DNA from: a virus
Reading direction: 5' to 3' (one strand)
IMG/VR virus record: IMGVR_UViG_3300041809_000940
Coordinates: 1 to 42,491 of that record
Length of the DNA: 42,491 nucleotides
Of the stretch, positions 3,292 through 33,780 are shown one piece after another (position 1 is the stretch's first letter; every line of letters begins with the position of its first letter). The position numbers were made by a program, and so were the translations under genes. Below the pieces are notes generated by a model that made no database searches, had not been told where the DNA came from, and saw nothing but the letters and a program-made list of their open reading frames with translations.

Positions 3292-4697
3292 TTCCCCGCA
3301 AAGGCGCAAAAAAGAAGACGGTGACTTTCGATCTTCCGGGTTACGATGGCTGGCAACCTCGAGCCGACCAGGTTTCTCTCTTTCAATATTTTGAGAATGG
3401 CGGATTAAAGGGCGTGGAGGTAGCCCACAGGCGATGGGGAAAAGACGAGATTGCCCTTCGTCTCTTTCTCTACATGGCCCATAAAAGAATCGGCAACTAC
3501 TGGCATATGCTCCCATTGAATAATCAGGGCCGCAAGGCTATATGGGAATCGGTAAACCCTTTGACGGGCCATCGAAGGATAGATGAAAATTTTCCTGAAC
3601 TTCTCAGAACGGACACCCGCGAAACCGATATGTTTATCCGGTTTAAGTCAGGGTCCACCTATCAAGTCATCGGTTCGGACTCCTATAAAAACCTTCTCGG
3701 TTCTCCCCCTGTAGGCGTCGTTTATTCCGAATTTGGCCTGACAAACCCTATGGCATGGGGGGAAGTGTCTCCTATTCTTGAGCAGAATGGCGGGTGGGCC
3801 ATGTTCATCGGTGTTCCTGCGGGCGATAACCATTTTAAGCGCATCTTTGACTTTGCCAGAAGTGAACTGGGACAAAAGGACGGCTGGTATGCGGAGCTTA
3901 TTGACGCCTATCATAGTCCCGTTTTTACTCTGGAACAACTTGAACGGGAGAAAAGGAATCTTATAGCTACCTTCGGAGAGGACCAGGGGCTTGCCCTTTT
4001 CTCCCAAAACTATGAGTGTCAGTGGGGAACTGTCGTCATCGGTTCCTACTTTGGCAAGCAGATGAAGCAATTATGGTCGGATCGTCACATCACCCGCGTC
4101 CCGTGGCGGCCCGATCTTGAAGTGGAGACTTTTTGGGACCTGGGGGTGGATGACTCGACTTCAATCTGGTTCATGCAGCAGGTAGGCAAGCAATACCTCT
4201 TCATTGATTATTACGAGGCCACGGGCTATGCCATGGGCCATTATGCCAAGGTTTTGAAGGAAAAGCCTTACGTTTACGGCAACCACTGGATGCCTCACGA
4301 TGTTGAACAACGGCACATGAGTCAGGAATCGGAGATAGCACGATCGGTCAGAGAAGTGGCGGAGGCCCTTGGCGTGAAACCTGTTATCACCGTTAGAAGG
4401 CCCCGGAACATGGATGACATTATTTATGTCCACATTCCGGCTATCAGGAATATCCTGCCTTCATGTTGGTTTGACGAGATAAAATGCGCTCAGGGGATTG
4501 CCTGTCTTGAGAATTATGCGGCGGAATATGACGAAGAAAAGAAGGTGCAGAGTAATAGGCCGCTTCATAATTGGTGTTCGCATGGGGTCGATTCTTTCAG
4601 AACGATGGTCGCCGGTTATCGACCCGTTGACACCGCCCGCATTCAATCGGTGTCAGAATATATGCAGAATATAGACCTGCATCCGTTTGGGGGATAA
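3288..4697 (+). CDS. terL: terminase large subunit
   Basis: 469 aa, GTG start coupled to the preceding stop. The ATPase part has the deviant Walker A AHRRWGKDE (46-54) and a Walker B-like GVVYSE (143-148). The nuclease part begins near TFWDLGVDD (281-289), where the first metal-binding aspartate of the RNase H-like fold is expected. The protein is the motor that threads DNA into the prohead and cuts it. Length is normal for the family. The next gene starts three bases after the stop, so the accessory cassette rides on the terminase message. Confidence 0.93.
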   Translation: MIPRKGAKKKTVTFDLPGYDGWQPRADQVSLFQYFENGGLKGVEVAHRRWGKDEIALRLFLYMAHKRIGNYWHMLPLNNQGRKAIWESVNPLTGHRRIDENFPELLRTDTRETDMFIRFKSGSTYQVIGSDSYKNLLGSPPVGVVYSEFGLTNPMAWGEVSPILEQNGGWAMFIGVPAGDNHFKRIFDFARSELGQKDGWYAELIDAYHSPVFTLEQLEREKRNLIATFGEDQGLALFSQNYECQWGTVVIGSYFGKQMKQLWSDRHITRVPWRPDLEVETFWDLGVDDSTSIWFMQQVGKQYLFIDYYEATGYAMGHYAKVLKEKPYVYGNHWMPHDVEQRHMSQESEIARSVREVAEALGVKPVITVRRPRNMDDIIYVHIPAIRNILPSCWFDEIKCAQGIACLENYAAEYDEEKKVQSNRPLHNWCSHGVDSFRTMVAGYRPVDTARIQSVSEYMQNIDLHPFGG

Positions 4698-4699
4698 AG

Positions 4700-5959
4700 A
4701 TGACTATCCTTCACATAACCCCTCACCTTGGCGGCGGCGTCGGTCGCGTCCTTCTTGCCTGGCTAAGAAAGGACAGGAGTTGCAAACATAGCGTGATGTG
4801 TCTTGATTATGCTAACGAGAAAGCCCTTGAAGCTTCTCGTAAGATAGGATTTCGTCTTTATGAAAACGTGCATGTATTCCCAAAACTGATTGAAGAACAC
4901 ATAGAGAAGGCCGACATCGTGCTCATTCATTTCTGGAATCACCCCTTGCTCTATGATTTTCTCGTCAGAGAAACTTTACCACCTGCTAGAATCATTATGT
5001 GGAGTCACATTTCAGGATCGTACCCGCCTTATGTGTTTACCCGGCCACTCCTTCGATACCCTGATTATTTTGTGTTCACAACGCCTTTGAGCTTTGGAAC
5101 AAAAGAAGTACAAGCCTTGGAATCTACCGCCCGGATGCCCGTCATTTGGTCTACTGCCGGGCCGGTTTCTCATGTACAACCACGACCACATAAAGGTTTT
5201 GTCGTCGGCTACATCGGCACGGTAGATTATTGCAAGCTTCATCCTGATTTTCTCAAGATGTGCGCGGCTATAAATATCCCTGATGTTCATTTTGTCGTGT
5301 GTGGTGGCCCATGTGAAAATGAGATCAGAAAAGAAGCTGAGAGCATGGGCATAGGAGATAAATTCACTTTTACCGGCTATGTCGATAATGTAGCGGACTA
5401 CCTTGCAGGCTTTGATGTCTTTGGCTATCCCCTTAACCCGATGCACTATGGAACTTGCGATCAGGCGTTAACTGAGGCGATGGCGGCGGGTGTCCCGCCT
5501 GTGGTTTTGTCAAACCCGATGGAAAGTCACATGGTGCAAAGCGATACGGGATTGGTTGTACAAGATGCCGACATATATGTCAAGACTATGGAATATCTTT
5601 ATCTGAATCCTGCATCGTTGAAACCTCTTTCAGAGAACGCCCGGGCATCAGTCGGAGCAAGGTTTTCTCTTGATAAAATGATTGGAGAATGGAAAGGACA
5701 GTTTGATGAAGCGATGAGTCTGACGAAAACGGCAAGGGAATGGATGGGGCGGGTTAAGGGAGAAAATGTGTTGCCTTCTGATGTTTTCTTGGAATCTCTA
5801 GGGGAATACGGGAAGGATTTTGACCCGATAACTACCAAGAACCTTCGTAATCTTCGGGAGCAACCTATCTGGTCATCGGCAACGCGGGGCACGGCGCATC
5901 ACTATCACTATTTTTCCCCGGAAGATGAACGATTAAAATTGTGGAGTGACCTGACATGA
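4700..5959 (+). CDS. GT-B glycosyltransferase (GT4-like)
   Basis: 419 aa. The N-terminal half begins ILHITPHLGGGVGRV, a glycine-rich loop typical of GT4 enzymes. The C-terminal half has VVGYIGTVDYCKLHPDFL, FTFTGYVDNVADYLAGFDV and QALTEAMAAGVPPVV, the usual nucleotide-sugar-binding EX7E region of GT-B enzymes. Such enzymes transfer a sugar from a nucleotide donor. The C-terminal 80 residues are extra. It starts 3 bases after the terminase stop and overlaps the radical SAM start (ATGA), so it is expressed with the packaging genes. Acceptor unknown. Confidence 0.85.
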   Translation: MTILHITPHLGGGVGRVLLAWLRKDRSCKHSVMCLDYANEKALEASRKIGFRLYENVHVFPKLIEEHIEKADIVLIHFWNHPLLYDFLVRETLPPARIIMWSHISGSYPPYVFTRPLLRYPDYFVFTTPLSFGTKEVQALESTARMPVIWSTAGPVSHVQPRPHKGFVVGYIGTVDYCKLHPDFLKMCAAINIPDVHFVVCGGPCENEIRKEAESMGIGDKFTFTGYVDNVADYLAGFDVFGYPLNPMHYGTCDQALTEAMAAGVPPVVLSNPMESHMVQSDTGLVVQDADIYVKTMEYLYLNPASLKPLSENARASVGARFSLDKMIGEWKGQFDEAMSLTKTAREWMGRVKGENVLPSDVFLESLGEYGKDFDPITTKNLRNLREQPIWSSATRGTAHHYHYFSPEDERLKLWSDLT

Positions 5960-7515
5960 ACGTCCTTCTTGTCGTAGTACCCTACCTGATGAAGCTTGAA
6001 GTTAAGGAACACATGCTTAGAAGTTTCACAGCATTTCCCTATGGTGTGCTGTCCATAGCTTCTTACCTCAAAAAAAATGCGCCCCATGCGAATGTCCGAG
6101 TGCTTGACTGCAACCTTCACAATGACCTTTCTGCCCTGAAAGAGACCCTTAAGGATTTCAGCCCCTCTATCGTCGGGCTTTCCATGATGTTCGATATTTC
6201 TTATAAGCATCTTTCTTCGATCACGGCGATGATCAAAGAGCATGACAGGCGGACTATCGTTGTCCTTGGAGGCTCGGCGGCTACGTCGTCTTACGAAAAT
6301 ATCCTTGAAATGCAACCAGACATCGACGCGATTTGTTATTATGAAGGTGAACGCCCCATGCTCAAGCTGATTAGGAATGATTACCCGGGGATTCTCAATG
6401 ACCCATGGTGGATCACGAGGCAGTCTTTGCTTGAAAAGAGAAGGCCGGAGAAACTATTCGTGTGGAATCTCGATGAGCTTATCGACATTGATTACAGCCT
6501 TGTGAATGTTTCGGATTACGAGATGGTGGAAGCCTTTTCGCCATGTTCCCATAGGATAAAGAACAAGAGGCAGTTTATTTTAGTTACGTCTAGGGGTTGT
6601 AAATTCGGGTGCTCGTTTTGCTTCCATTCTGGCGATCCCGACAAGACGATCAGGTATGCGAGTGCAGAGAAAATTATCTCCCACGTCAAGCACCTTGTCG
6701 ATGATTACGGTATGAACGTTCTGACGATTAACGATGACCAATTGCTACTCAACATGGACCGGGCCAAACAAATCTTTGCGGGTCTTGCCGGCTTAGGAAT
6801 CAGGATTGAGTGCCCAAACGGGCTATCCGTCGCTTTCATGGATGAGGAACTTATCGCCCTGATGAGGGCGGCGGGCATGGACACGGCGACCCTCGCCATA
6901 GAGTCAGGTTGCGCTTATGTTCTCAATAACATCATTCATAAGCCCTTGACTCTCGATAAAGTGAAGCCGGTTGTCGATATTTTGAGAAAATATGACTTCT
7001 GGATTCACGGATTTTTTGTCTCAGGCATACCGGGGGAAACCGACAAGCACCGGGATGAGACGGTAAGATTCATCAAAGAAGTGGGGCTTGATTGGGCGGT
7101 ATTTAATCTTGCAATGGTGTCAAGGGGTAGTGATCTCTTCAGGATGTGCGTACAGAATGGCTACATAGACAAGAACACGAAAATAGGAGACCTTCAGTAT
7201 AGCCGGTATATCATCAACACCCCTGAGTACAGCACGGAGCATGTCACCACGAAGACCTACCGGATGAACCTTGATGTGAATTTCGTGAACAATTACCGGA
7301 TGAAACACGGGGAATATGCCATAGCCGCCGACGCGTTTAGGGATGTCATCAGGAGATATGAGGACCAGGCGTTTGCTTATTATTACCTGGGGAAAGCGCT
7401 ATGGGAGATGGACCGGCATGGGGATGCCGCCGATGCGTTTGAGAAATACACTGAGATTGTTTTAAAAGACCCTTTATGGAAAGCCCACGCCGAATATTTC
7501 GGGCTGGAGACATGA
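5956..7515 (+). CDS. B12-binding-type radical SAM protein with C-terminal TPR
   Basis: 519 aa in three parts. Residues 1-150 look like the Rossmann-type B12-binding domain (LLVVVPYL, VLDCNLHND, VGLSMMFD, VVLGGSAAT). The radical SAM core has GCKFGCSFC with C215, C219 and C222 for a 4Fe-4S cluster, then the TINDDQ strand and ATLAIESG. The last 70 residues are TPR-like (GEYAIAADAFRDVI, FAYYYLGKALWEMDRHGDA). This class includes methylases and other carbon-skeleton chemistry. TPR units usually bind proteins or peptides, hinting at a protein partner. It is coupled to both neighbours by overlapping stops and starts. Confidence 0.85.
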   Translation: MNVLLVVVPYLMKLEVKEHMLRSFTAFPYGVLSIASYLKKNAPHANVRVLDCNLHNDLSALKETLKDFSPSIVGLSMMFDISYKHLSSITAMIKEHDRRTIVVLGGSAATSSYENILEMQPDIDAICYYEGERPMLKLIRNDYPGILNDPWWITRQSLLEKRRPEKLFVWNLDELIDIDYSLVNVSDYEMVEAFSPCSHRIKNKRQFILVTSRGCKFGCSFCFHSGDPDKTIRYASAEKIISHVKHLVDDYGMNVLTINDDQLLLNMDRAKQIFAGLAGLGIRIECPNGLSVAFMDEELIALMRAAGMDTATLAIESGCAYVLNNIIHKPLTLDKVKPVVDILRKYDFWIHGFFVSGIPGETDKHRDETVRFIKEVGLDWAVFNLAMVSRGSDLFRMCVQNGYIDKNTKIGDLQYSRYIINTPEYSTEHVTTKTYRMNLDVNFVNNYRMKHGEYAIAADAFRDVIRRYEDQAFAYYYLGKALWEMDRHGDAADAFEKYTEIVLKDPLWKAHAEYFGLET

Positions 7516-8390
7516 TGGAGTTAAGACGCCTCGGTCGCACAAATCTTCAAGTCTCGGTCTTAGGCTTCGGCGGCGCAGAGATCGGCCAGCAGAATATCGA
7601 ACAGAAATCAGTGGATTATCTTCTCAACATAGCCCTTGATTCCGGCATAAACATCATCGATACAGCGGAATGCTATGGAAATAGTGAAGAATTGATCGGC
7701 CACGCGGTCGGCCATAGAGACGATGTTTTTATCAGCACGAAGTGTGGCCATGCAGAAGAGCCTAATGACAACTGGAAGCCTGAGACAATTCTTTCAGGCA
7801 TTGAGCGTAGTCTTAAAAGACTGAAACGGGATTGGCTTGACCTGATTCAACTTCATTCCTGCCCCTTCGATCTGTTGAAACGAGGCGAGGTCATTGATGT
7901 TTTAGAGAAGGCCCGTGATGAAGGTAAGGTAAGATTTATCGGCTGTTCCGCCGATGGGCAAGCGGCTAAATATGCCATAGAGACAGGAAGATTCGATACT
8001 CTGCAGACTTCTTTCAATATAGCGGACCAGGAGGCATTGACGCTGACCTTTTCCCTTGCCCGAGAGAAAGACATGGGGATCATCGTCAAGCGCCCCTTGG
8101 CTAATGTCGTCTGGAAGCACAAAGAGAAGCCGGGCAACCCGTGGCTGCATAAGTACTGGGAGAGGATACAAAAGCTCGATTATGGGTTTTTGGACTCCTG
8201 CGTCGTGCCTTTACGCTTTGCGTTGTCTCCCGCCGCCGTGTCAACCGTCCTTGTCGGCTCCGTGACGCCAAAACATTTAACGCGGAATGCGGCCTATGCA
8301 TCCTACGGGGCGTTGACCGCCTACAGGTTCATGCAGATTCGCACCCGGTGGAAGAAGTGCGGCGGCGATGAATGGCCGGGAGTGGGATGA
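7512..8390 (+). CDS. aldo/keto reductase
   Basis: 292 aa from ATG 7512 (a second ATG is at 7515), overlapping the previous stop. The (beta/alpha)8 family signature is complete: D50 in IIDTAECYGN, Y55, K77 in ISTKCGH and H115 in LIQLHS form the catalytic tetrad, and VLVGSVTPKHL near the C-terminus matches the NADPH phosphate-binding loop. Such enzymes reduce aldehydes or ketones with NADPH. Several AKRs act on keto-sugars, which would suit the glycosyltransferase next to it, but the substrate cannot be read here. Confidence 0.85.
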   Translation: MMELRRLGRTNLQVSVLGFGGAEIGQQNIEQKSVDYLLNIALDSGINIIDTAECYGNSEELIGHAVGHRDDVFISTKCGHAEEPNDNWKPETILSGIERSLKRLKRDWLDLIQLHSCPFDLLKRGEVIDVLEKARDEGKVRFIGCSADGQAAKYAIETGRFDTLQTSFNIADQEALTLTFSLAREKDMGIIVKRPLANVVWKHKEKPGNPWLHKYWERIQKLDYGFLDSCVVPLRFALSPAAVSTVLVGSVTPKHLTRNAAYASYGALTAYRFMQIRTRWKKCGGDEWPGVG

Positions 8391-8632: not shown

Positions 8633-10966
8633 GTGCCTACGGCTTGGCCCTGGTCAAAGAAACCTATCGAACCTATCTCCCCTGTCGGGGAAAGAACGCC
8701 TGGAGAAGAAGAAAAAGAAAATGAGCGTGATTTTATCGACCACGCTTTGAAAAGAGTCGAGGCCCGCCGTACAATGGACTCAGAAAACCGTACCGAGGCC
8801 ATAGACTCCCTGAAATTTCTTGAAGGTATCAATCAGTGGGATGACGGCGAGAAACAGCGCAGAAAGAATTCAGGCCGTCCCATGCTTCAGATGAACACCG
8901 CTCCAACCTTTACCCATGAGGTCATCGCAGACGGTCACGCAAATAAGTTTCGAGTCAAGGTGCATCCTTCTGACATGGACGGAAACCTTGAAACCGCCAA
9001 AATCAAGGCTGGCATCATCTCTCAGGCAGAATATGTTTCTAGTGCCGATTCGATCTACCTTATGGCCCGGACGTGTATAGTCGAGTGCGGTTTCGGTGCC
9101 TGGCGCGTCCTGACCCGCTATACCCAGGACAACCCCTTTCTTCAGGAAATGTATCTTGATCCTATTTTCAACCCCTTCAATGTCTTTATGGACGTGAACG
9201 CAAACCCGTGGCTTGTTTATGCCGATGCCAACTGGTGTGGGATAACGGGCAAGATTTCAAAAGATTCGTTTGAAGAGTTTTACCCTCATGCGGAACTTCC
9301 GACCGACCGCCTTACCGTGGGATTCGGCATTCAGCAGGAGCATTGGTGGACAAAAGATGATGTGACGGTCCTTGAATTTTACTGGCGCGTTCTCAGAAAA
9401 GAAACACTCTGTCTCATGGATGACTATGATGTGCTCACAGAGAAAGAGGCCAATGAGAAGATAAAGAATTTTCAGGCAGCTATCAAGGCGGAGAATGACC
9501 GGCGAGAGCAACTTATCGAACAACTGAAAGTGCTTCAGGTTGGAAGTCCAGAGGCCATGCAACTGCAACAACAGGTAACTGCTATCCCTCGCCGGACCTT
9601 GCCTGAGATCAAGGATACCACCGAAGCGGAAATCATCAGGGTAAAATATGCCAAGTTGAGTGCCGCAGGGATGATTGAAGGCGGGACAACGGGCGTGGAT
9701 GTCTCAGGAAAATATATCCCTGTTATCCTTGCCACGGGCAGAAAAAGGAACATCGAAGGTAAAATCTATATATCGGGTCTCATCAAGCACGCAAAAGACC
9801 CTATCAGGTTCAAGAACTGGTGGGTGACGAACCTAGCGGAACAATTCGCTATACAGCCTAAGACGCCGTGGTTAGGCACGCCAAAACAGTTCAAGAATTT
9901 CATGCGGGATTACGCAAGGGCCAATCAAGAAAACTGGCCGATGCTGTTCTATAACCCCGAAGTGGTAGAGGGCCAAGTTATCCCCGCGCCTCAAAGGATG
10001 CAACCGCCTAGCTTATCTCCTACAGCGATAGCCATGTCTGAGGTTGCAGAGTCGAATATTCACGACACTATCGGCATGGGGCCGCGAGACGTGGGCGAGA
10101 AAGGGCCGGAGCGCAATGCTGCCGCTATTATCGAGGCCCGCCGTCCATCCGACATCGCCACAAGCGACTTTTCGGAATTTATGAGAAACGCCGTCGCCCA
10201 TTCAGGCCGTGTCATGGAGTCCATGATCCCCGAAGTTTATGATACCCCAAGGGACGTGAGAATCAGAGACCACGAGGGCAATGAAGCATTCGCGCCCATA
10301 AACAAGACTTTGGGTCAGGTAAGACAAACCCTTATTCAGAACCCCAAGGCATATGCGGGTCTTCAGAAAAAGAAAATCAACGATATGGCGAGGCAAAAGG
10401 GCGATAACCACGTCCTGTATAATCTCAAGAAAGGTCGTGGGAACGTCATCATTGACACCGGCCCGGCCATGAGCACGCAGAGACAGGAAGTAGCCCACAA
10501 GTTGATGATGATGGCGCAGGGCAATCCAAGGCTCCATCTCCTTGTCGATGACATTATCCTGAAAGCCCTTGGCGATCCTTACATGGATGAGGCTGCAGAA
10601 CGGGTCAGAACGGCTCTCAAAATGCAGCAGCCGGGGCTTGTGAAACCCATCGAAGGCGAAGAGGAACAGCCCCCGCCTCAACAGCCTATTCCTCCGAAGG
10701 TTCAGGCCGATATTGGCAAGGTGCAGGTCCAGCAGATGAAGGCCAAGAACGAAGAACAGAGAATGCAAAACGACAAGATAAGGGCAGAGACGGAACGGCT
10801 CAAGCTGATGAAAGAATTCAAGGATCAGGACAAGGAAACGAAGCAGATGCTCATGGACCTCCTGAAAGAGCTTTTTTCAGACAAGCATTGGGCCGACGAG
10901 ATAGCGCAACAACGTGGGGTATTACCGGGAGGAGATGGGCAACCCGCTCCTCCTATGCCACAGTAA
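8633..10966 (+). CDS. portal protein, P22 family
   Basis: 777 aa. The region EAIDSLKFLEGINQW, SGRPMLQMNTAPTF, VIADGHANKFRVKV and the downstream core match the P22-type portal family, the dodecameric ring through which DNA enters and leaves. The C-terminal 100 residues are a long charged coiled coil (QVQQMKAKNEEQRMQND), reminiscent of the portal barrel. The GTG start at 8633 is the only plausible start in the open frame upstream of the conserved part, yet its ribosome site (GAGG) abuts it and the terminator T-run precedes it. That is unusual and may limit expression. Confidence 0.9.
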   Translation: MPTAWPWSKKPIEPISPVGERTPGEEEKENERDFIDHALKRVEARRTMDSENRTEAIDSLKFLEGINQWDDGEKQRRKNSGRPMLQMNTAPTFTHEVIADGHANKFRVKVHPSDMDGNLETAKIKAGIISQAEYVSSADSIYLMARTCIVECGFGAWRVLTRYTQDNPFLQEMYLDPIFNPFNVFMDVNANPWLVYADANWCGITGKISKDSFEEFYPHAELPTDRLTVGFGIQQEHWWTKDDVTVLEFYWRVLRKETLCLMDDYDVLTEKEANEKIKNFQAAIKAENDRREQLIEQLKVLQVGSPEAMQLQQQVTAIPRRTLPEIKDTTEAEIIRVKYAKLSAAGMIEGGTTGVDVSGKYIPVILATGRKRNIEGKIYISGLIKHAKDPIRFKNWWVTNLAEQFAIQPKTPWLGTPKQFKNFMRDYARANQENWPMLFYNPEVVEGQVIPAPQRMQPPSLSPTAIAMSEVAESNIHDTIGMGPRDVGEKGPERNAAAIIEARRPSDIATSDFSEFMRNAVAHSGRVMESMIPEVYDTPRDVRIRDHEGNEAFAPINKTLGQVRQTLIQNPKAYAGLQKKKINDMARQKGDNHVLYNLKKGRGNVIIDTGPAMSTQRQEVAHKLMMMAQGNPRLHLLVDDIILKALGDPYMDEAAERVRTALKMQQPGLVKPIEGEEEQPPPQQPIPPKVQADIGKVQVQQMKAKNEEQRMQNDKIRAETERLKLMKEFKDQDKETKQMLMDLLKELFSDKHWADEIAQQRGVLPGGDGQPAPPMPQ

Positions 10967-10978
10967 AAGGAGTAGGTT

Positions 10979-11902
10979 ATGGACAATGATACACCCGTTG
11001 AAGAAATTCAACCAACCGAAACGCCGGGGTCGGTTCCCGGAACAGCAGAAGAACCCGTAGTAGAAACGAAGGAAGGTGGAGAACCCACCCCTGTAGCAAA
11101 ACCGGGAGCGCCTAGCGCGGAAGATGAATTAAAGCGCCAGAGAAAAGAACAGCGTCGTCTTCGGGAAGAAAATCAGCGCCTCAAGGAACAGGCTGCGTAT
11201 GAGCGCGGTCTGCGTGAAGGCATGATTAAGCCTGCTTCGGGAACACCCGTAGCGGCATCCGAAGACAAGCCCCCGGAAAAGCCTGACCCCGACAAGTTCG
11301 AGGGCGGGCAGTACAGCAGGGAATACCTTGAAGCCATGGCCGATTACTCTTCTGATCTGGCAGTTTATAAGACAGGCCAGAAACAGAAAGAGGCCGATCA
11401 GAAAAAGGCGCAGGATGATGGAAACAAGACGCTCATGGAGAATTTTAATGCATTCAAGTCGAGGGTTGCCAGGGCCGCAGAAGAATTTGATGACCCTGAG
11501 ATAGCCGAATGTCTTGAACGAAACGATGCGTCTAACCCGTTCCATGTAGATGCAAGGGTATATCCAACGGCTCCTGCTGTGGTGCTCTTCATCATGGAAT
11601 CAGAACTTGCGCCGAGGCTCATCAGGCATTTCCTCGATAACAGGGCGGAGCTTGAGACTATCTACAAGTCCGCCACACCAGCCGCAGCCATGGCAAAAAT
11701 GGCGCGAGTGGAGGCAAAATTGGAAGCAGAAACGAAACCCGACCAAACAAAAATGAAGAGTGGCGCACCCAAGCCCATAACGCCGATACCGGGCACACCT
11801 GCTCCGGGGTCGGCTACCAAAATAGAACCGGAAGACATGTCGGTGGGGGATTATTTCCATCACTACATGACAAAGTTCTATGGTGGGGGTGCAGCGGCAT
11901 AA
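10979..11902 (+). CDS. scaffolding protein
   Basis: 307 aa between portal and coat, where P22-like phages keep their scaffold. The N-terminus is acidic and proline-rich, then a coiled coil (ELKRQRKEQRRLREENQRLK, about 50-69), a helical middle, and a C-terminus ending DYFHHYMTKFYGGG that could be the coat-binding helix. Scaffolds direct coat assembly and leave the prohead. AGGAG stands 7-11 bases upstream of ATG 10979. Assignment rests on position and composition. Confidence 0.75.
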   Translation: MDNDTPVEEIQPTETPGSVPGTAEEPVVETKEGGEPTPVAKPGAPSAEDELKRQRKEQRRLREENQRLKEQAAYERGLREGMIKPASGTPVAASEDKPPEKPDPDKFEGGQYSREYLEAMADYSSDLAVYKTGQKQKEADQKKAQDDGNKTLMENFNAFKSRVARAAEEFDDPEIAECLERNDASNPFHVDARVYPTAPAVVLFIMESELAPRLIRHFLDNRAELETIYKSATPAAAMAKMARVEAKLEAETKPDQTKMKSGAPKPITPIPGTPAPGSATKIEPEDMSVGDYFHHYMTKFYGGGAAA

Positions 11903-11932
11903 AGCGTCGCTCTTCTCACGGAGGATTGTATT

Positions 11933-13255
11933 ATGGCTCAGAGAATCTTAACCATGTCGATGATTACGACGGGCATCCTGCCGGTGCTCCATGCAAACCT
12001 CGTATTTGCTAAGGGGATTGACAGACACTATGACGCTCAATTTGGCATTTCCGGCGCGATGATCGGCAACACTCTCAACATCAGGCTGCCCAACAGGTAC
12101 TATGTTTCTGACGGTCCTAACCTTCAGGCTCAGGATACCCAAGAGCAGATCGTAGCTTTGACCCTTAACCACCAGTGGCAGGTCAGCACCAACTTCACGA
12201 GTGCCGATTTTACCCTGTCTCTGGATGAATTCAGTCGCCGGATTCTTACCCCGAAATCGGCGGCACTTACCAGCAAGATCGATTACTGGTGCGCTGTGGA
12301 AGCGACCATGAACGCTTTCAACATGGTTGGCACTCCGGGAACATCTCCGGGCGATCAGGCGGTGGCGACAGCAGGCTTTACCAATGCGACGGTTCCGAGG
12401 GTTTACCTCAACGCCGCAAGGTTGCTCGATTACAACAACGTTCCTGCGGATAACCAGAGGCGAATGATCATCACCCCGGATGCTCAGGCATCTTCGGTCG
12501 ATGGTCTCAAGGGCCTCCTGAACGATCAACACCTTGTCGGTGAGCAGTACAGGCGCGGTGTGCTCGGAGAGACTTTCGGCTATGAGTTCGCCATGGATCA
12601 GAACCTGTACGCGATTCAGCCGGGCATCAGGGGCACCAACACACCGTATGTGAACGGCCCCGGTCAGACAGGTCTAAGCCTTTATACGAGCGGCTGGCCT
12701 GCGAACACCAACGTTCTTTATCCCGGTGAAGTCTTCACCATCGCAGGCGTGAATTCAGTCAACCCGGAAAACCAACAGGACAACGGCGCAGCAGCCATGT
12801 TCTGTGTGGGCGGTATGGGCCTTCAGTACGTGAACGGACAGACGCAGTTGCTTCTCACGCCCGTTACGTCCGATGCCAACGGCAATGCGACTATTCCCTT
12901 GGCGTCTCCTTTTAACGGCATAATTGCTGCCGGTCCTCAGATCGCCAATGCTACCGTCACCGCTTCTCCGGCAAACCAGGCGCTTCTTACCATGCTTTAT
13001 CCGACAAACAGCGCCGCTTCCGCCACGACCTATAAGGCGAGCATCGCCATGCATCACGACGCGATGACGCTCGGGACCGCAGACCTGGTGCTTGAGCCGA
13101 ACCTTCAGTTTGGAGCGCGGGATAATTACGACGGCATCAGCATCAGGATCATCAGGCAGTACACAATAGGTACGGACCAGATACCGTGCCGTATCGACGT
13201 TCTTGGCGGAGTTAAGGCCCTGCGGCCCGAATTGCTCTGCAAGATCACGCAGTAG
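11933..13255 (+). CDS. major capsid (coat) protein, P22 family
   Basis: 440 aa. The opening (ILTMSMITTGILPVLHANLV) and later stretches DYWCAVEATMNAFN, QRRMIITPDAQASSVDGL, FAMDQNLYAIQPG and a C-terminus RIIRQYTIGTDQIPCRIDVL match P22 coat (gp5) homologues, an HK97 fold with an inserted domain. It follows the scaffold with a GGAGG site (11920-11924). As the most abundant virion protein it is one candidate target for the neighbouring modifying enzymes. Confidence 0.9.
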   Translation: MAQRILTMSMITTGILPVLHANLVFAKGIDRHYDAQFGISGAMIGNTLNIRLPNRYYVSDGPNLQAQDTQEQIVALTLNHQWQVSTNFTSADFTLSLDEFSRRILTPKSAALTSKIDYWCAVEATMNAFNMVGTPGTSPGDQAVATAGFTNATVPRVYLNAARLLDYNNVPADNQRRMIITPDAQASSVDGLKGLLNDQHLVGEQYRRGVLGETFGYEFAMDQNLYAIQPGIRGTNTPYVNGPGQTGLSLYTSGWPANTNVLYPGEVFTIAGVNSVNPENQQDNGAAAMFCVGGMGLQYVNGQTQLLLTPVTSDANGNATIPLASPFNGIIAAGPQIANATVTASPANQALLTMLYPTNSAASATTYKASIAMHHDAMTLGTADLVLEPNLQFGARDNYDGISIRIIRQYTIGTDQIPCRIDVLGGVKALRPELLCKITQ

Positions 13256-13265
13256 GGGGTGCAGA

Positions 13266-15017
13266 ATGGCATACGATCAACTTACAGAAAACCGGCTCGA
13301 TGGTACTCAGTGCGGCCAGAGTCCTACGGACAAACTCGCCTTTTGGGGTGGTATTCCGATCCCTAGAAGGTCATCCCCGATGGAGGCGACCTTACAGCCT
13401 TTTCAGGGGGGTGTTCTTACCACATATCAGGTGTCTTTCACCCCTACGGCGAGCGTCGCGCCCAATACCTTTGCGGAACAGTATGTGACGGTAACGGGTG
13501 TGGCGACAACTGATTTTGTGATGCACGTCGATAAGCCTACGCTTGACGCGGGCATCAGCCTTGGCGGGCTCAGGGTGTCCACTACCGCGAACTATGTGGG
13601 AATCAACTTCGGCAACGACACCAGCGCTACCGTGACGCCTACGAGCAACCAGACCTACACGATCATAGTGGCAACCGGCCTAAACGTAATTTCAGCTACC
13701 TTGACGCCTTCGGCGGTTCCTCCTAGCTCGGATACTACCACAGAGGGCGTCATGGAACAGACCTTCTCTTTGCCGGGCGGCATCAGCGCGGCAGGGGTGG
13801 CCATTCTCAACGCGGCAGGGCAAATTGCCGGGGTCAGCATAACCAATAACGGCACGGGCTATTATACCCCTCCCGATGTGGTGTTTGCCGCGGGTGTATG
13901 GCCTGTCGAAATCATGTCCGGCACATTGGACGGCCTTGGCGGTGGACTCTCCAGGGGTACGTTTGCCGGTAATACTTACAGCGTTGTAGGCCAATTAGTG
14001 CAAACTGCTCCACCGACCGCGCAGTATCCGGGAGGGTCCGGTGCTTGCGGCATTGGAATTATCGATGGTTCCGGCCATGTAATCGGCGTCCAGATGATTT
14101 CTCCGGGTGCCGGTTATCAGGTGGCCCCTACCGTCACTTTCTCTGGCGGCCAGAACATCTCAATGGGGATGGCAGTTCAGGTCAACAAGAACGCACAGCA
14201 GGCAGGGCTTGGCATATCGAATGTTAGAGTCCCGGCTGACAACCAGATCGCCATTACCTACGTGAACAACACAATCGCCACTATCACGCCGACAGCCGGG
14301 GAGACCTACAAAATTTTGGGTATCAACGGTCTTTCCGCCTATGGTAACATTCTGGACTACGGGGTCTATGTCAGCACAACGGGTGTGAATACATCAACAG
14401 CCGTCGAGAGGGATTTTACCGTCACCGGCATTGCAACGACGGACAAGATCATAGGGATGCAGAAACCGACCATCGCGGCCGGGGTTGTAGTTACCGGCCA
14501 GTTTGTTTCCACGACCAACCAGATCGGCGTGAACTTTGGGAACGTTTCAACTACCGGATCAATTGTGCCAGCCGCTGAAACCTATGACTTCAGCGTTTTC
14601 AGACCGTCGCCGGTAGCACCATGTGTCCTTATTCCGGCCTATCTCACGCCTGCATCGGTCGCGGCCAATACCACGGCAGAACAGAGCTTCACGGTGGTAG
14701 GCATCCCGGCCAACTCTTACGTGAGGGCTATCAAGGGCAGTGCTACGGCGGGCTTGGCGGTAGGTCAGTGCCGGGTCAGCACCACGAACAACATTTACAT
14801 CGGGTACGAGAACGACACGGCGGGAGCCATTGTTCCGCCTGCAGAGTTCTATATGCTCGAAGTCTTCCAGCAGCAGGGGGCAGGGGCTAGTACTGGACCG
14901 ACCGTTACGGCTAACAGGGTATCCGCGCCTTGTTTCCAGACATTGAATATGTTGATCGATGAGGCCAATGATATGCGGAATACGCTCAAGCTCACGGGCA
15001 TCGAGCAGGGGCACTAA
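13266..15017 (+). CDS. repeat-rich structural protein, probable capsid decoration
   Basis: 583 aa from ATG 13266, 10 bases after the coat stop. At least three copies of an all-beta unit of about 75 residues can be read (AEQYVTVTGVATTDFVMHVD...VSTTANYVGINFGN; RDFTVTGIATTDKIIGMQ...VSTTNQIGVNFGN; AEQSFTVVGIPANSYVRAIK...VSTTNNIYIGYEN), plus two GxGYxxxPxVxF motifs. A helical C-terminal tail follows (FQTLNMLIDEANDMRNTLK). It is rich in Thr, Ser, Ala and Val, low in charge, and adjacent to coat. Ig-like head decoration or fibre is the best guess. Thr/Ser richness would also make it a possible glycosylation substrate. Confidence 0.7.
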   Translation: MAYDQLTENRLDGTQCGQSPTDKLAFWGGIPIPRRSSPMEATLQPFQGGVLTTYQVSFTPTASVAPNTFAEQYVTVTGVATTDFVMHVDKPTLDAGISLGGLRVSTTANYVGINFGNDTSATVTPTSNQTYTIIVATGLNVISATLTPSAVPPSSDTTTEGVMEQTFSLPGGISAAGVAILNAAGQIAGVSITNNGTGYYTPPDVVFAAGVWPVEIMSGTLDGLGGGLSRGTFAGNTYSVVGQLVQTAPPTAQYPGGSGACGIGIIDGSGHVIGVQMISPGAGYQVAPTVTFSGGQNISMGMAVQVNKNAQQAGLGISNVRVPADNQIAITYVNNTIATITPTAGETYKILGINGLSAYGNILDYGVYVSTTGVNTSTAVERDFTVTGIATTDKIIGMQKPTIAAGVVVTGQFVSTTNQIGVNFGNVSTTGSIVPAAETYDFSVFRPSPVAPCVLIPAYLTPASVAANTTAEQSFTVVGIPANSYVRAIKGSATAGLAVGQCRVSTTNNIYIGYENDTAGAIVPPAEFYMLEVFQQQGAGASTGPTVTANRVSAPCFQTLNMLIDEANDMRNTLKLTGIEQGH

Positions 15018-15032
15018 GGATCGATCTTGATT

Positions 15033-15066
15033 GGGGAGGGGCGTCTTCTTCCTTCCCCTCCCCTTT
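15033..15066 (+). terminator. strong hairpin, probable terminator
   Basis: GGGGAGGGG (15033-15041) and CCCCTCCCC (15055-15063) form a perfect 9-bp G/C stem with a 13-base loop, followed by TTTC. It lies just after the decoration gene and before the second accessory cassette. The T tract is short, so it may also act as a transcript stabiliser or processing signal. Confidence 0.55.
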
Positions 15067-15085
15067 CAGGGCCTACGGAGCGATA

Positions 15086-16057
15086 TTGAGCAATAAAAGA
15101 CGCCTGAAGTTAGCTCTGGCGGTTTTTGCAAAGAACGAAGAGGATTGCATTAAAGCCTGTATAGAATCCTGTAAGGGCGTGGACCATGTTGTCGTCGTTG
15201 ATACGGGTTCTACCGACAGGACAAAAGAGATCGCAGCGGCTTGCGGGGCCAAGGTTTATGATTACGCATGGCATGACGATTACGGGGCAGCACGGACATA
15301 CAGTCTTAGATGCTGTCCCGATTGGATAGATTGGATTATCAGCCTCGATGCAGATGAACAAGTAGAGAAGGGCGGAATCGAGACGATCAGGAAGACCCTT
15401 GAGGTCATCAACGCCGACCCTGATTTCAATGCCTGTCAGATTCTTCTTTGCAACATTGACCAACAGGAGCAAACGCATTGGTTTGAGAGGGTGGTAAGAA
15501 ACAAGCCGTCAGTTTTCTATTCCTACCCGATAGACGAGTGCTACATCGCTTCTCCTACGGATAAGATAGGAAAGATAACGGACGTGAAGGTGTTTTATAA
15601 AGTGAGATCGGGAATGACGCCTGAAAAACATCTTGCCTTGGTAATCGACTTTCTGAGGCTCAATCCCAATGAAGAACGGATGCAATATGTCGCAGGGCGG
15701 CGTTATTACTCTTGCGGGGACTGTCCTTCAGCGGTCTACTGGTTTGAAAGGTATATCAGGAATAGACAGTCTTTGGGGCTATCTATGGCGACACCGCAGA
15801 TGGTTGACGCTCTGTTCTTCTGCGCCTATGCCCATGTGAAAATGCTTGAGTTTGCGAGGGCCAAAGAACTTCTCACGGCGGCCTGGCAGATCAACAATGA
15901 TTTCAGGGATGCGTGTCTTCTTATGTCTAAAGTGGTAGGGTACGAAGGCGACAAAGAAACCGAGCAGGTCTGGCTGAACAGGGCATTTAAGGCTAACAAC
16001 ACTGGCCTTGTGTACGGTCCATCGAGAACGACTATGGTACAAATGGCGGGACCATGA
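15086..16057 (+). CDS. GT2 glycosyltransferase with C-terminal helical repeats
   Basis: 323 aa. TTG start at 15086 behind GGAG (15077-15080). It begins LALAVFAKNEEDCI and continues VVVVDTGSTDRTKEI and SLDADEQ, the GT-A fold with its DxD-type metal site. The second half is alpha-helical and TPR-like (SAVYWFERYIRNRQ, AKELLTAAWQINNDF). This combination is frequent in bacterial GT2 proteins linked to surface or peptide glycosylation. The stop overlaps the radical SAM start (ATGA), so it is the first gene of a three-gene coupled cassette. Confidence 0.85.
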   Translation: MSNKRRLKLALAVFAKNEEDCIKACIESCKGVDHVVVVDTGSTDRTKEIAAACGAKVYDYAWHDDYGAARTYSLRCCPDWIDWIISLDADEQVEKGGIETIRKTLEVINADPDFNACQILLCNIDQQEQTHWFERVVRNKPSVFYSYPIDECYIASPTDKIGKITDVKVFYKVRSGMTPEKHLALVIDFLRLNPNEERMQYVAGRRYYSCGDCPSAVYWFERYIRNRQSLGLSMATPQMVDALFFCAYAHVKMLEFARAKELLTAAWQINNDFRDACLLMSKVVGYEGDKETEQVWLNRAFKANNTGLVYGPSRTTMVQMAGP

Positions 16058-16998
16058 ATGCTGAGTTTACACCGAGAATAGAATTGCAGGGACGAACGAG
16101 ACTTGAGACGGTCATCCCTCTTAGTACGCCTTTTGTGTTGTTTGTCGATCCCTCCGACGTGTGCAACCTTCATTGCCAATTCTGTCCTACCGGGACGGGA
16201 AAATTGAGCTGGTCGGGCCTTATGGATTTTGCACTATACAGGAAAATCATTGATGACCTGAGCGATTTTGATAGGCCGCTCAAGGTTCTGCGTCTTTACA
16301 AGGACGGCGAGCCTTTGATGAATCCTCGATTTGCCGATATGGTCAGGTACGCGAAAGAACGGGAGGCCTTTCAGATTGACACCACGACGAATGGGACCTT
16401 ACTCAGTCCTGAAAGGAATCTAGAATTGATTTCCGCAGGGCTTGACCGGATAAACATTTCTGTCAACGGTGTACCCTCAAAGGGCTATGTCGAAAACATC
16501 AGGCATCTTTACGAACACCGACAGGGTTGTGTGATGTGCGTTAAAACCATTGGCGATGTCCTATCAGATAGTGAAAAACAGGCATTCCTCGATACTTTCG
16601 GTGATATTTCCGACCGGATATTTATCGAACACCTCGCCCCGTGTTGGCCTGAATTTGACATGAGTTTCATTCCCAATCAGGAAGTAGGGATTTACGGACA
16701 GGCCATTGAACGGGTTGAGGTTTGCCCCTATATCTTCTATTCGATGTCCGTCAATTCCGATGGGGTGGTGAGCGCGTGCTTTCTTGATTGGGCCAGAAAA
16801 TTGACCGTAGGCGATGCAAGGACGGAAAGCCTTAAAGACATTTGGAATGGTGAAAAACTGTCGGTGTATCGAAAACTTCATCTGATGAAAAAACGGGCTG
16901 AAATAGGGATATGTGCGAACTGCGGCCAATTATCCCACGGACTCCCTGATAACATTGACGCCTTTGCCGAACAAATCCTTAAAGAGAGGTTTGCATGA
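16054..16998 (+). CDS. radical SAM protein with SPASM-like C-terminus
   Basis: 314 aa. CNLHCQFC (C37, C41, C44) binds the radical SAM cluster, and LRLYKDGEPLMNP is the family's second strand motif. The C-terminal region VEVCPYIFYSMSVNSDG, VSACFLDW and GICANCG carries the cysteines of a SPASM/twitch-type auxiliary cluster, and GDARTESLKDIWNGEK is the standard linker. SPASM enzymes often act on peptides and proteins, some on sugars or aminoglycosides. No precursor peptide gene is visible beside it. Coupled at both ends by ATGA overlaps. Confidence 0.87.
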   Translation: MNAEFTPRIELQGRTRLETVIPLSTPFVLFVDPSDVCNLHCQFCPTGTGKLSWSGLMDFALYRKIIDDLSDFDRPLKVLRLYKDGEPLMNPRFADMVRYAKEREAFQIDTTTNGTLLSPERNLELISAGLDRINISVNGVPSKGYVENIRHLYEHRQGCVMCVKTIGDVLSDSEKQAFLDTFGDISDRIFIEHLAPCWPEFDMSFIPNQEVGIYGQAIERVEVCPYIFYSMSVNSDGVVSACFLDWARKLTVGDARTESLKDIWNGEKLSVYRKLHLMKKRAEIGICANCGQLSHGLPDNIDAFAEQILKERFA

Positions 16999-18290
16999 TC
17001 GTAGTGAACACCGATAATAAACCGGTTTTTGAAGAAGGCGATAACGTCCGGCAAAAAAGGGCCAAGATCGGTGAGGTTCTTTTTAACGATAAGGCACCCC
17101 TTGTGAGCGTTATTGTCTTGGGATGGAACAGGTCGGATAAGACGAGGATATGCGTGGAGTCCGTGCTGAAATTTACCGAAGGCATCGATTACGAGCTTGT
17201 TTTACTGGACAACGGTTCGACAGATGATACGCTTGATTACTTTCAGAGCGTAGATCATCCAAAAAAAACGATCATCAGGATTACTAAAAATGTTGGGGCC
17301 TTTTTCGGGATGGATACCGGAATGCTCCATTCAAGCGGAAAGTATCTTGCCGAACTTGCTAACGATACTTACGTGACGAAAAATTGGCTGAAAAATATGC
17401 TCAGGTGCGCGGAATCAGACCCATGTATAGGTATGATTAGCCCTCGCTCATCCAATGTGAGTAACCTTCAGAATGCTAATATTTCCTTTCTTGGCCTAGA
17501 AGAGATGCGGCAAAAAACCGCCGAATATAATGTGTCTGACCCAAGGAAATGGCATGAGCGTCTTCGCCTCATTACGATAGCTACACTGTTCAGAAGGGAA
17601 TGCCTGAGTATAATTGGTAGATTCGATTATGGGTTTGTCCATGACTTTGGCGATGATGATATTACCTTTCGTGTCAGAAGGGCGGGTTATAAGGCTATCC
17701 TGTGCGGTGATGTTTTTGTGCATCACGATCATCCCATGGAAGAGAGAAATGAAGCGAAATTTACTGAAGACCTTAAAAAAGGAAAGCTTGATTTCAGAGA
17801 AAAATACCATGGTGTTGATGCTTGGGATGACGTGAATAACTTTGAGCCTGGCATAATGGCGCTGGTTAATCCCGAAGAAAAGCGCGGTCTTCCCTCGATT
17901 CTCGGCATAGACGTAAGGTGCGGCACGCCGATCTTGGAATTGAAAAACAGGTTGCGTTTGGCCGATGTCTTCAACGCCCACCTTGCCGCCTTCACCACTG
18001 AGGCCAAATATTACCCTGACTTACTGACTATCTGCGATGAAGGAAGGGTTTTCGTGGACAGGCCGGAATATCTGAAGTTACGTTTTCAAGCCCCTGAATT
18101 CGATTACGTGGTTTTGGGAAAGCCGATTAATACCTACAGGCAATCGGCTACGCTTATCTCAGACATAAAATCATTGTTGAAACCGGATGGAAAATTGCTC
18201 GTCACGATGGAAGGCAATGGGGCCGACGTTATTCATGGTCTTGCCTCTCCATCAGGAATAGATTTGAAGAGTGTAATAACGCTGCCATAG
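16995..18290 (+). CDS. GT2 glycosyltransferase fused to a methyltransferase-like domain
   Basis: 431 aa. Residues about 35-265 form a GT-A domain (PLVSVIVLGWNRSDKTRICV, LLDNGSTDDTLDYF, then FGDDDITFRVRRAGY). The C-terminal 130 residues look like a degenerate SAM-dependent methyltransferase: LGIDVRCGTPILELKNRL resembles motif I, FDYVVLGKP and LLKPDGKLLVTM resemble the later strands. Glycosyl- and methyl-transfer fusions are known in polysaccharide synthesis. Motif I lacks one expected glycine (RCGTP), so activity of that half is uncertain. Last gene of the second cassette. Confidence 0.8.
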   Translation: MIVVNTDNKPVFEEGDNVRQKRAKIGEVLFNDKAPLVSVIVLGWNRSDKTRICVESVLKFTEGIDYELVLLDNGSTDDTLDYFQSVDHPKKTIIRITKNVGAFFGMDTGMLHSSGKYLAELANDTYVTKNWLKNMLRCAESDPCIGMISPRSSNVSNLQNANISFLGLEEMRQKTAEYNVSDPRKWHERLRLITIATLFRRECLSIIGRFDYGFVHDFGDDDITFRVRRAGYKAILCGDVFVHHDHPMEERNEAKFTEDLKKGKLDFREKYHGVDAWDDVNNFEPGIMALVNPEEKRGLPSILGIDVRCGTPILELKNRLRLADVFNAHLAAFTTEAKYYPDLLTICDEGRVFVDRPEYLKLRFQAPEFDYVVLGKPINTYRQSATLISDIKSLLKPDGKLLVTMEGNGADVIHGLASPSGIDLKSVITLP

Positions 18291-18321: not shown

Positions 18322-18444
18322 ATGCTGAAGTCCAAAGGCCCGAAAAAAGTGAAAAACCCTACTCACAGCAAGTATGCGGAATATGTGGCGGAGAAAAAGG
18401 TGCCTCACGGTGCCGGGAAGGGAAAGAAGAAGACAAAGAAGTAA
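18322..18444 (+). CDS. very small lysine-rich protein
   Basis: 40 aa, with ATG 18322 preceded by GGAGGT (18308-18313). About one third of residues are lysine (KKVKNPTHSKYAEYVAEKK, GKGKKKTKK). Such basic peptides in late operons may bind DNA or be packaged, but the function is unknown. It lies between cassette 2 and the neck genes. Confidence 0.5.
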   Translation: MLKSKGPKKVKNPTHSKYAEYVAEKKVPHGAGKGKKKTKK

Positions 18445-19827: not shown

Positions 19828-21297
19828 ATGCCTGCTATAAATGGTTTTCTTGGGCCAAGTTACAACGGGAGAAGCAGTGAGTTTCTAGCTGCTCGCACTG
19901 TGAACCTGTTTGCAGAATTGGGAACGGTTGATGGCACGAGTAAGACTATTATTTCCCTTGTCGGCCCTATAGGTTCGGCTTTTTACGCCAATGGTGGTGC
20001 TTCTCCAGTCAGGGGAATGTATCCTTGGAACGGCAGTCTCTATGTTGTCGAGGGCAGCACTTTGTCACGTTTTACCGCTAACCTTCAACAAATCATTCTC
20101 GGTACTCTCACAACCAGCGTGGGCCGTGTCCTGATGAAAGACAATGGGCTTACTGCAAGCGGCATAGGCGGAAATCAGCTTATGATTATCGACGGGGCTA
20201 ACGGCTATATTGTCGATACTTCGGACACGTTTTCTATCATTTCCGATGGCGTTTTCCCTGCCAATCCTATTGCTCTTGGCTACATAGACGGATATTTTGT
20301 CGTGGCGGCACAGGGCAGCATGGCGGCTTACTGTTCAACCATTTACAATGGTCTTTCAGGCTATTGGCCGTTTCTGGCAGTTTCTCCTATTCAGGCCGAA
20401 CCGGACATTATCAGGGTCATTCAGAACCTCAACCAGCAACTTTGGTTCATCAAACAATATACCTCTGAAATCTGGTATGACGCGGGAATATCTACGGTTT
20501 TGGGCTTCCCGTTTTCGAGGACAAGCGCCGGGATTATCAACTGCGGTACACCCTCTCCTTTCGGCGTCGTAAGAGCAGATAATAGCCTTGCGTTTCCCGC
20601 GACCCAATGGAACAATGACCAGGGAGAATTTATCGGAATTGTGGAATTGTCTGGGAGCAGCCCGGTCGTTATTTCTCCTCAACCTATAACCTATCAGATG
20701 AGTAAATGGGCACCGTGGACCGATGTATTCGGTTTTTCGTTTTCTCTTGAAGGTCATACTTTTGGTATCTGGACAAGCCCTAGCGCCAACCAGACTTTTA
20801 TGTATGACTTTACCACGCAAATGTGGTTTGAATGGTCATCGTGGACGGGATCGCCTTACATAACCGGACGGCACTTCAGCAATTGTTACGCTTATTTCAA
20901 CGGGATGCATCTTGTAGGCGATTATGCTTCGGGCAACATAAACTATCTAAGTACATCCTTGTACCAGGACTCCGGCAATCCTATAGCGTCTTTGAGAGTG
21001 GGGCCACCAATCTTTGACTCAAACAATTTAGATAACGTGATGATTGAATCGTTTGAGCTAGATGCGGAAATGGGCGTAGGAAATCCCACAACGAGTCTCA
21101 ACCCTCAGATAGCCCTTTCATATTCTGACGACGGCGGACACCGCTGGTCAACGGAAATGCTGAGAGGACTTGGGGCTGCGGGGCAGTATCAGAATCGGGC
21201 CATTTGGAACAATCTTGGGTCATTCGCACAGTTCTTACCACGAGTGGCGATAACGGATAATTGTAGCAGGGTGCTCACAGGGGCCTATGTGAGGTAG
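19828..21297 (+). CDS. packaged-DNA stabilisation protein, P22 gp10-like
   Basis: 489 aa. Opening INGFLGPSYNGRSSEFLAAR and TVNLFAELG, followed by SLVGPIGS, YVVEGSTL and a run of beta blades, matches the P22 gp10 family, a tail hub that holds DNA in the head and seats the spikes. Length is close to the family norm (about 470). It begins 11 bases after the gp4-like stop. Confidence 0.85.
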   Translation: MPAINGFLGPSYNGRSSEFLAARTVNLFAELGTVDGTSKTIISLVGPIGSAFYANGGASPVRGMYPWNGSLYVVEGSTLSRFTANLQQIILGTLTTSVGRVLMKDNGLTASGIGGNQLMIIDGANGYIVDTSDTFSIISDGVFPANPIALGYIDGYFVVAAQGSMAAYCSTIYNGLSGYWPFLAVSPIQAEPDIIRVIQNLNQQLWFIKQYTSEIWYDAGISTVLGFPFSRTSAGIINCGTPSPFGVVRADNSLAFPATQWNNDQGEFIGIVELSGSSPVVISPQPITYQMSKWAPWTDVFGFSFSLEGHTFGIWTSPSANQTFMYDFTTQMWFEWSSWTGSPYITGRHFSNCYAYFNGMHLVGDYASGNINYLSTSLYQDSGNPIASLRVGPPIFDSNNLDNVMIESFELDAEMGVGNPTTSLNPQIALSYSDDGGHRWSTEMLRGLGAAGQYQNRAIWNNLGSFAQFLPRVAITDNCSRVLTGAYVR

Positions 21298-28761: not shown

Positions 28762-29183
28762 CAAAGTGGATCGATAATCTAAGAACGATTTATACGAGAA
28801 TCGGAAAGACTAAACATGGTGTTGGAGTTATCGCAATACGCCACATTCCTGTGGGTACAGACCCATTTCAGGGAGACATATCATCTCTTTTGGCAATTCC
28901 TAAAGCGGTTATTGACGCTCTTAAAATTACTCCAGAACTAGCAGAAATGATAAATGATTTCTGCCCTCTTAAAAAGGGTCTCTACCAAGTCCCCTTGGAT
29001 GGATTCAACAATATAGGCGTTGGTTGGTATTTGAACCATTCTAATACTCCAAACATGGTTACTTATGATGGGAGTCTTACCTTCATTGCCGCAAGAGATA
29101 TTATGAAGGGAGAGGAACTTACTATAAATTATAATACCTACGATGACCAAAAAGATAATTTTGAGGAGGCTTGGCGCTTATGA
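28731..29183 (+). CDS. SET-domain protein methyltransferase
   Basis: 150 aa, GTG 28731 with GGAGG (28719-28723) inside the end of the ATP-grasp gene, which it overlaps by 31 bases. The C-terminus carries the SET hallmark GWYLNHSNTPNMVTYDGSL followed by ARDIMKGEELTINYNTYDD; NHSxxPN and GEELxxNY form the SAM-binding pseudoknot and contain the active-site tyrosine. The N-terminus GVGVIAIRHIPVGT matches the first SET strands. Family members methylate lysine side chains of proteins. It precedes the tail fibre gene, so fibre or other virion proteins are possible targets. Confidence 0.8.
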   Translation: MRNAVRNNAITKWIDNLRTIYTRIGKTKHGVGVIAIRHIPVGTDPFQGDISSLLAIPKAVIDALKITPELAEMINDFCPLKKGLYQVPLDGFNNIGVGWYLNHSNTPNMVTYDGSLTFIAARDIMKGEELTINYNTYDDQKDNFEEAWRL

Positions 29184-30679: not shown

Positions 30680-30681
30680 GG

Positions 30682-31485: not shown

Positions 31486-31495
31486 TGGAGGAACT

Positions 31496-32596: not shown

Positions 32597-32625
32597 TGAT
32601 AGCAAGGAGTTACATAGGAGGTAAC

Positions 32626-33009: not shown

Positions 33010-33011
33010 GC

Positions 33012-33770: not shown

Positions 33771-33780
33771 GAGGTTCGAC

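Follow-up and report, generated by a model that had tools for sequence, protein, structure and literature searches.

A candidate virion glycosylation module with two radical SAM genes in the head region of a P22-like phage

Gene content of the locus

The IMG/VR virus record IMGVR_UViG_3300041809_000940 was analyzed over its full length of 42,491 bases (the window). It comes from a short-tailed phage with a P22-like head module, and its head-structure region carries six enzyme genes in two cassettes. The first cassette sits between the TerL and portal genes, and the second is a trio that follows a head-fiber-like gene directly 3' of the coat gene. The enzymes, the head-fiber-like protein, and the hairpin ahead of the trio are as follows.

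4700..5959, + strand, GT1-type glycosyltransferase (GT1; Pfam Glycos_transf_1, 3e-18)
5956..7515, + strand, B12-binding radical SAM protein with C-terminal TPR (Pfam; CxxxCxxC at residue 215)
7512..8390, + strand, aldo/keto reductase (Pfam Aldo_ket_red, 1.9e-40)
13266-15017, + strand, head-fiber-like protein of 583 amino acids, directly 3' of the coat gene
15033-15041/15055-15063, + strand, hairpin with a 9-bp GC-rich stem, between the head-fiber-like gene and GT2a
15086..16057, + strand, GT2a, a GT-A glycosyltransferase with C-terminal TPR-like repeats (PF00535, 6.5e-14)
16054..16998, + strand, BtrN-type (twitch) radical SAM protein (Pfam Radical_SAM, 4.7e-15; SPASM, 9.4e-14)
16995..18290, + strand, GT2b, a GT2 glycosyltransferase whose C-terminal domain looks like a degenerate methyltransferase (Pfam GT2, 7.6e-17)

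Open reading frames, overlaps, and Pfam matches bear out the overlapping trio at 15086-18290 that an earlier note on this DNA had described, each gene overlapping the next by 4 bp. For the aldo/keto reductase, the ATG at 7512 was taken as the start in place of 7476, giving a 4-bp overlap with the preceding stop. The phage encodes three glycosyltransferases (GT1, GT2a, and GT2b), the window holds two radical SAM genes in all, and transmembrane segments were found in none of the six enzymes. The C-terminal domain of GT2b is present as the earlier note had proposed, but its methyltransferase-like character finds no significant family match (best Pfam match Anamorsin_N, E 0.087; PMT-2, E 0.065). 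The hairpin, which had been singled out as strong, has its stem but is not exceptional in stability against dinucleotide shuffles (z −0.9), and a T tail is almost absent. The junction between the head-fiber-like gene and GT2a is no assembly artifact, because a contig from a different sample (L008) is 99.98% identical to the window across 10328-15155, a stretch that spans it.

Relatives of the enzymes

The radical SAM protein at 16054-16998 (the SPASM-family protein below) has BtrN as its top profile match (1e-19). Its cysteines are C37/41/44 (CNLHCQFC), C224, C242, C287, and C290; C242, C287, and C290 align with cysteines of BtrN, and C224 fits by spacing. No cysteine lies beyond C290, and the seven-cysteine SPASM motif for two auxiliary clusters is absent; because the cysteines end at C290, the protein would have one auxiliary cluster site, unlike the two of typical peptide maturases. 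The NCBIfam peptide-maturase cutoffs were not reached by this protein, the matches listed all being far below them, and its closest relative of known structure uses an aminocyclitol as substrate. On its sequence the protein is a BtrN-type "twitch" enzyme, not a typical peptide-maturing SPASM protein, and the earlier suggestion that its SPASM character hints at peptide modification loses its footing.

For the B12 radical SAM protein, the nearest solved relative is AprD4 (6fd2; 2.5e-20). The AprD4 equivalog NF033070 scores 64.6 bits against a cutoff of 500, and the protein reaches no characterized B12 radical SAM equivalog in NCBIfam. It is 57-58% identical to a protein of a cellular operon (L013) located 6 kb from flagellin.

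The family profile of GT2a matches GmaR (2e-27) and SunS (8e-20), which are a flagellin glycosyltransferase and a peptide glycosyltransferase, respectively. GT2a has the architecture of the GmaR/SunS type, namely a GT-A domain, a DXD motif, intact in the window as D88-A-D90, and C-terminal helical/TPR repeats; the SunS S-glycosyltransferase equivalog TIGR04195 was not reached (29.5 bits versus 350). The repeats and the neighboring gene suggest a protein or peptide acceptor.

GT1 is 63, 41, and 41% identical to proteins that adjoin a SPASM-family gene in L007, L002, and L003, respectively, and the aldo/keto reductase is 78% identical to an L007 gene (L007@11584) directly 3' of the L007 B12 radical SAM gene. 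GT2b is 59% identical to the GT2b of L007, the sole match among the viral contigs searched with it, and 41-46% identical over 94% of its length to genes adjacent to SPASM-family genes in Lachnospiraceae-type clusters (L016, L028, L045, and L051). Among INPHARED phage records the SPASM-family protein has no close relatives, just ∼25% identical ones in Campylobacter phages. Viral sequences are scattered over the tree of this family (8 changes, at least 6 of them on supported branches), and the gene has therefore probably been exchanged repeatedly between phages and bacteria.

Two cassettes, one module

The related viral contig L007, whose coat protein is 53% identical to that of the window, has the order portal, GT2b, SPASM-family protein, GT1, B12 radical SAM protein, aldo/keto reductase, scaffold, coat, a 554-amino-acid homologue of the head-fiber-like protein, and GT2 with TPR. 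Five of the six window enzyme genes are thus contiguous there, with 4-bp overlaps, and the GT2-TPR gene is the only enzyme gene that lies behind the head-fiber-like gene in both the window and L007. The earlier note had seen two glycosyltransferase-radical SAM pairs. The separate sites hold, but two independent cassettes are ruled out by the single run of five genes in L007; because that run exists, the difference between the window and L007 is best read as rearrangement, and the two cassettes look like one module that was split rather than two systems. A lack of co-distribution, which would have spoken against a link between the cassettes, was not seen: the genes for the SPASM-family protein, GT1, and the B12 radical SAM protein also recur jointly in other phages (L002, L093, L094, and L096) and in many bacteria. 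Between the window and L007, GT2a is 28% identical and the SPASM-family protein, GT2b, GT1, and the B12 radical SAM protein are 59-73% identical, so that GT2a may evolve faster than its partners or may have been replaced.

The head-fiber-like gene and the slot behind the coat gene

The head-fiber-like protein has a conserved N-terminal motif, DG..G...TDK..F(Y/W)G..PI..R, and its homologues occupy the same position in related phages. It is modeled (AF2, mean pLDDT 70) as several beta-sandwich domains in a row, followed by a C-terminal helix; a Foldseek search with this model returned nothing useful. Its Ser and Thr content, which the earlier note had called high, is 19.6%, compared with about 10% in the enzymes. 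Tail-region proteins encoded at 29171-35005 contain 22-26% Ser and Thr and very few Lys and Arg residues and have no Pfam match.

From IMG/VR, 80 coat relatives were collected, and the slot behind the coat gene was surveyed at 50 loci, including the window, L004, and L007. A slot was counted as complete when the coat gene and the next conserved head gene were both on the contig, and the head-fiber-like gene was scored by its shared N-terminal motif, plus the C-terminal helix where checked. With a head-fiber-like gene, all 22 slots hold glycosyltransferase-type, radical SAM, or Maf-like genes; without it, a sugar gene occurs in 4 of 28 slots, the 28 including five that have a single Ig-like domain in its stead. 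The association has a Fisher p of 1.7e-10 raw and of 3e-5 after clustering of coats at 70% identity. The coat tree requires 5 changes for each trait and 10 for the slot family, and the four independent pairs that can be drawn are on average concordant in 3.1 cases and opposite in none. Outside sugar genes, slot contents include HNH genes in L134 and L144, and the slots of L173, L174, L176, and L168 contain single Ig-like domain proteins of 104-106 amino acids and no sugar gene.

Several slot families recur. Family GT2a is found in the window, L007, L111, and L121. Family X carries the DxD motif FFDADTMIHPD and is often accompanied by an epimerase and a radical SAM protein; its model is poor (pLDDT 54), with weak Foldseek matches, among which the capsid glycosyltransferase of PBCV-1 ranks first (E 0.016). 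Family Y, which is phrog_1574 (e.g., L126:5564-6412 and relatives), accompanies head-fiber-like genes and looks like a GT-A glycosyltransferase. The slot of L004 (L004:5452-14212) lies directly 3' of the head-fiber-like gene and holds genes for a cytidylyltransferase, DegT, NeuB (6e-74), a SPASM-family protein, two B12 radical SAM proteins, a methyltransferase, and a tandem related pair, which together resemble a module for nonulosonic acid. Members of the pair are 53% identical to each other, and the first matches PF01973 at 1.3e-9, above the cutoff but moderate, and has no NCBIfam or PDB match; PF01973 is a family that includes the Maf flagellin glycosyltransferases.

Cellular relatives and flagellin

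A scan of GTDB genomes with the SPASM-family protein gave 80 loci, in which its neighbors are nucleotide-sugar and methyltransferase genes; the conserved ones encode RfbF, RfbG, RmlC-type proteins, a C-methyltransferase, DegT, FkbM, GT1, and the B12 radical SAM protein. Linkage to flagellin was assessed at 30 loci that had been picked before the flagellin search and mostly lie on long contigs; 25 of them are from genomes with flagellin. In 13 of these 25, no more than 25 kb separate the SPASM-family gene from a flagellin gene, whereas 0.9 would be expected given the number of flagellin genes and the size of the genomes (P is about 2e-13 with the genomes treated as independent, which they are not fully). 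In L009 and L013, which are among the nearest clusters, the last gene of the operon encodes a protein of 1,027-1,029 amino acids with two GT2a-like domains and is followed directly by flagellin. The SPASM-family and GT1 genes are common to the phage and both operons, and L013 additionally has the B12 radical SAM gene. Since a GT2-TPR gene adjoins flagellin in these bacteria, there is a parallel with the phage, where it adjoins the head-fiber-like gene. In FlmG of Caulobacter, the TPR part binds the flagellin acceptor, which provides an experimental precedent (PMC7591256).

Interpretation

We consider it more likely than not that the six enzyme genes form a single glycosylation module, akin to flagellin glycosylation operons and redeployed onto the phage particle. 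The earlier note had proposed a split system that modifies the virion. Modification of the virion is supported by synteny, co-distribution with the head-fiber-like gene, and kinship to flagellin operons, while the split into two systems is not.

Glycosylation would take place in the cytoplasm during head assembly, together with radical SAM tailoring. Nucleotide sugars would be supplied by the host, as is required because genes for their synthesis are missing from the phage. The TPR region of GT2a would bind the acceptor, as that of FlmG does, and GT2a would add the first sugar to Ser or Thr of a freshly made virion protein, most likely the head-fiber-like protein. GT1 and GT2b may then lengthen the glycan. 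Oxidation of a sugar hydroxyl may fall to the BtrN-type radical SAM enzyme, dehydration or C-methylation of a sugar carbon to the B12 radical SAM enzyme, and reduction of the keto group so formed to the aldo/keto reductase. The predicted outcome is a head surface that bears a deoxy or branched sugar. We infer the acceptor, the order of the steps, the substrate of each enzyme, and the existence of the glycan.

Several points weigh against this interpretation. The main internal difficulty is that three relatives of GT2a encoded beside a head-fiber-like gene (L007:16701-17669, L111:11036-12016, and L121:8194-9177) no longer have the DXD motif, with NAGER or GAGER in place of the DADE of the window and of cellular relatives. 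After control for phylogeny, the four independent pairs are consistent with the slot association yet too few for significance. Neither Pfam nor PDB sequences gave a match to slot families X and Y, whose reading as glycosyltransferases draws on DxD motifs, on the pattern of the fold, and on a single weak match in Foldseek. The flagellin linkage speaks to the role of the relatives, not to that of the phage genes, and roughly half of the cellular copies lie away from flagellin genes. Finally, the choice of the head-fiber-like protein as the most likely acceptor rests on adjacency and co-occurrence; the tail-region proteins are richer in Ser and Thr, so that the composition argument of the earlier note does not single it out, and they are possible alternative acceptors.

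A wider proposal, which we put forward tentatively and with less conviction, is that the P22-like coat lineage possesses a head glycosylation locus with exchangeable parts, acquired time and again from flagellin-type operons. The head fiber and its own transferase would be kept together while tailoring enzymes (cobalamin and twitch radical SAM) are exchanged, and the virions would show radical-tailored glycans like those of the host flagellum.

Alternative explanations

The target of the module could instead be on the host, where glycosylation of flagellin or of some other surface protein would serve to prevent superinfection or to change motility. The nearest cellular operons adjoin flagellin genes, and the acceptor would come from a flagellated host; nevertheless, this is unlikely, as both the window and L007 have the genes among those for head structure, their presence follows the structural gene across relatives, and the position is constant even where one slot family has given way to another. 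Less likely still is a change of host O-antigen or capsule in the style of serotype conversion. RfbF, RfbG, RmlC, and DegT, which adjoin the SPASM homologues, also make O-antigen sugars, but a GtrA flippase was not found in the window (the record may be a fragment), membrane segments are missing from the module proteins, and no lysogeny gene was recognized among the scanned proteins, which cover part of the window.

That the genes are passengers without a virion role, the slot being simply a place in the late operon where insertions are tolerated, would fit the highly variable and in part non-sugar (HNH) slot contents and the three GT2a relatives that have lost DXD; we regard it as very unlikely, given that the insert is nearly always sugar related and follows the head-fiber-like gene and that the window motifs are intact. 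About as improbable, or slightly more so, is modification of a peptide by the radical SAM enzyme independently of sugars, be it a product like the ribosomally synthesized and posttranslationally modified peptides or a residue of a virion protein: the SPASM-family Pfam match and the weak, sub-cutoff NCBIfam matches to peptide maturases are set against cysteines for one auxiliary cluster, BtrN as the best structural relative, and homologues within nucleotide-sugar operons. Hypermodification of phage DNA is highly improbable, for although phages are known to modify bases with glycosyltransferases and by radical chemistry, a thymidylate-synthase-like hydroxymethylase was not found in the window, the closest relatives are sugar and protein-glycan enzymes, and the genes lie in the head-structure region.

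Relation to known systems

Glycosylation of the virion by phage-encoded enzymes is already known, whereas radical SAM tailoring of the sugars and the slot pattern appear to be new; the earlier claim of an undescribed system survives in that part. In mycobacteriophage Che8 and cluster O phages, phage glycosyltransferases modify capsid and tail-tube proteins (Freeman et al. 2023, as cited in PMC11256854 and PMC11600133), and in cluster O an O-methyltransferase accompanies them. The likeness lies in phage-encoded glycosyltransferases, although here a glycan is predicted from the genetic association. The two citing papers do not mention radical SAM enzymes, in contrast to the twitch and B12 radical SAM proteins, reductase, and three glycosyltransferases described here, and they name capsid and tail-tube proteins as acceptors, in contrast to the separate head-fiber-like protein proposed here. 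In the open-license literature that was searched, no radical SAM-linked virion glycosylation system was found.

Flagellin glycosylation operons (FlmG, PMC7591256; Maf, PMC11339370; GmaR of Listeria) share with the phage a TPR-bearing cytoplasmic glycosyltransferase and a protein acceptor; the phage differs in that the neighbor is a head-fiber-like gene and nucleotide-sugar synthesis genes are absent. The resemblance of GT2a to SunS and GmaR comprises the GT-A fold and the C-terminal helical/TPR part, with the alignment covering the glycosyltransferase domain and the first helical part. With BtrN, the twitch dehydrogenase of butirosin, the phage protein shares CxxxCxxC and auxiliary cysteines, but it is longer and has another neighborhood. 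Campylobacter phages CP220 and CPt10 contain radical SAM gene clusters without known function (PMC2853527). They resemble the window in having several radical SAM genes, including one ∼25% relative that is annotated BtrN in two records, but unlike those of the window their clusters are not tied to a head gene.

If the interpretation is correct, virion glycosylation, documented in few phage groups, extends to uncultivated P22-like phages, and radical SAM chemistry acts on virion sugars by means of machinery derived from flagellum decoration. This suggests that phage surfaces, like flagella, may differ from one another in the type of glycan. The analysis also offers concrete acceptor/transferase pairs and proposed functions for slot families X and Y, the latter being phrog_1574.

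Other features of the head region

The remaining head-region genes of the window are as follows.

3288-4697, TerL
8633-10966, portal
10979-11902, scaffold
11933-13255, coat
19828-21297, head closure protein, preceded, after the trio, by proteins of 184 and 248 amino acids

A Lys-rich short open reading frame of 40 amino acids (18322-18444) lies immediately 3' of GT2b. The protein encoded at 2496-2921 has a C-terminal match to GroES/Cpn10, with a counterpart in L007 at 3284-3760.

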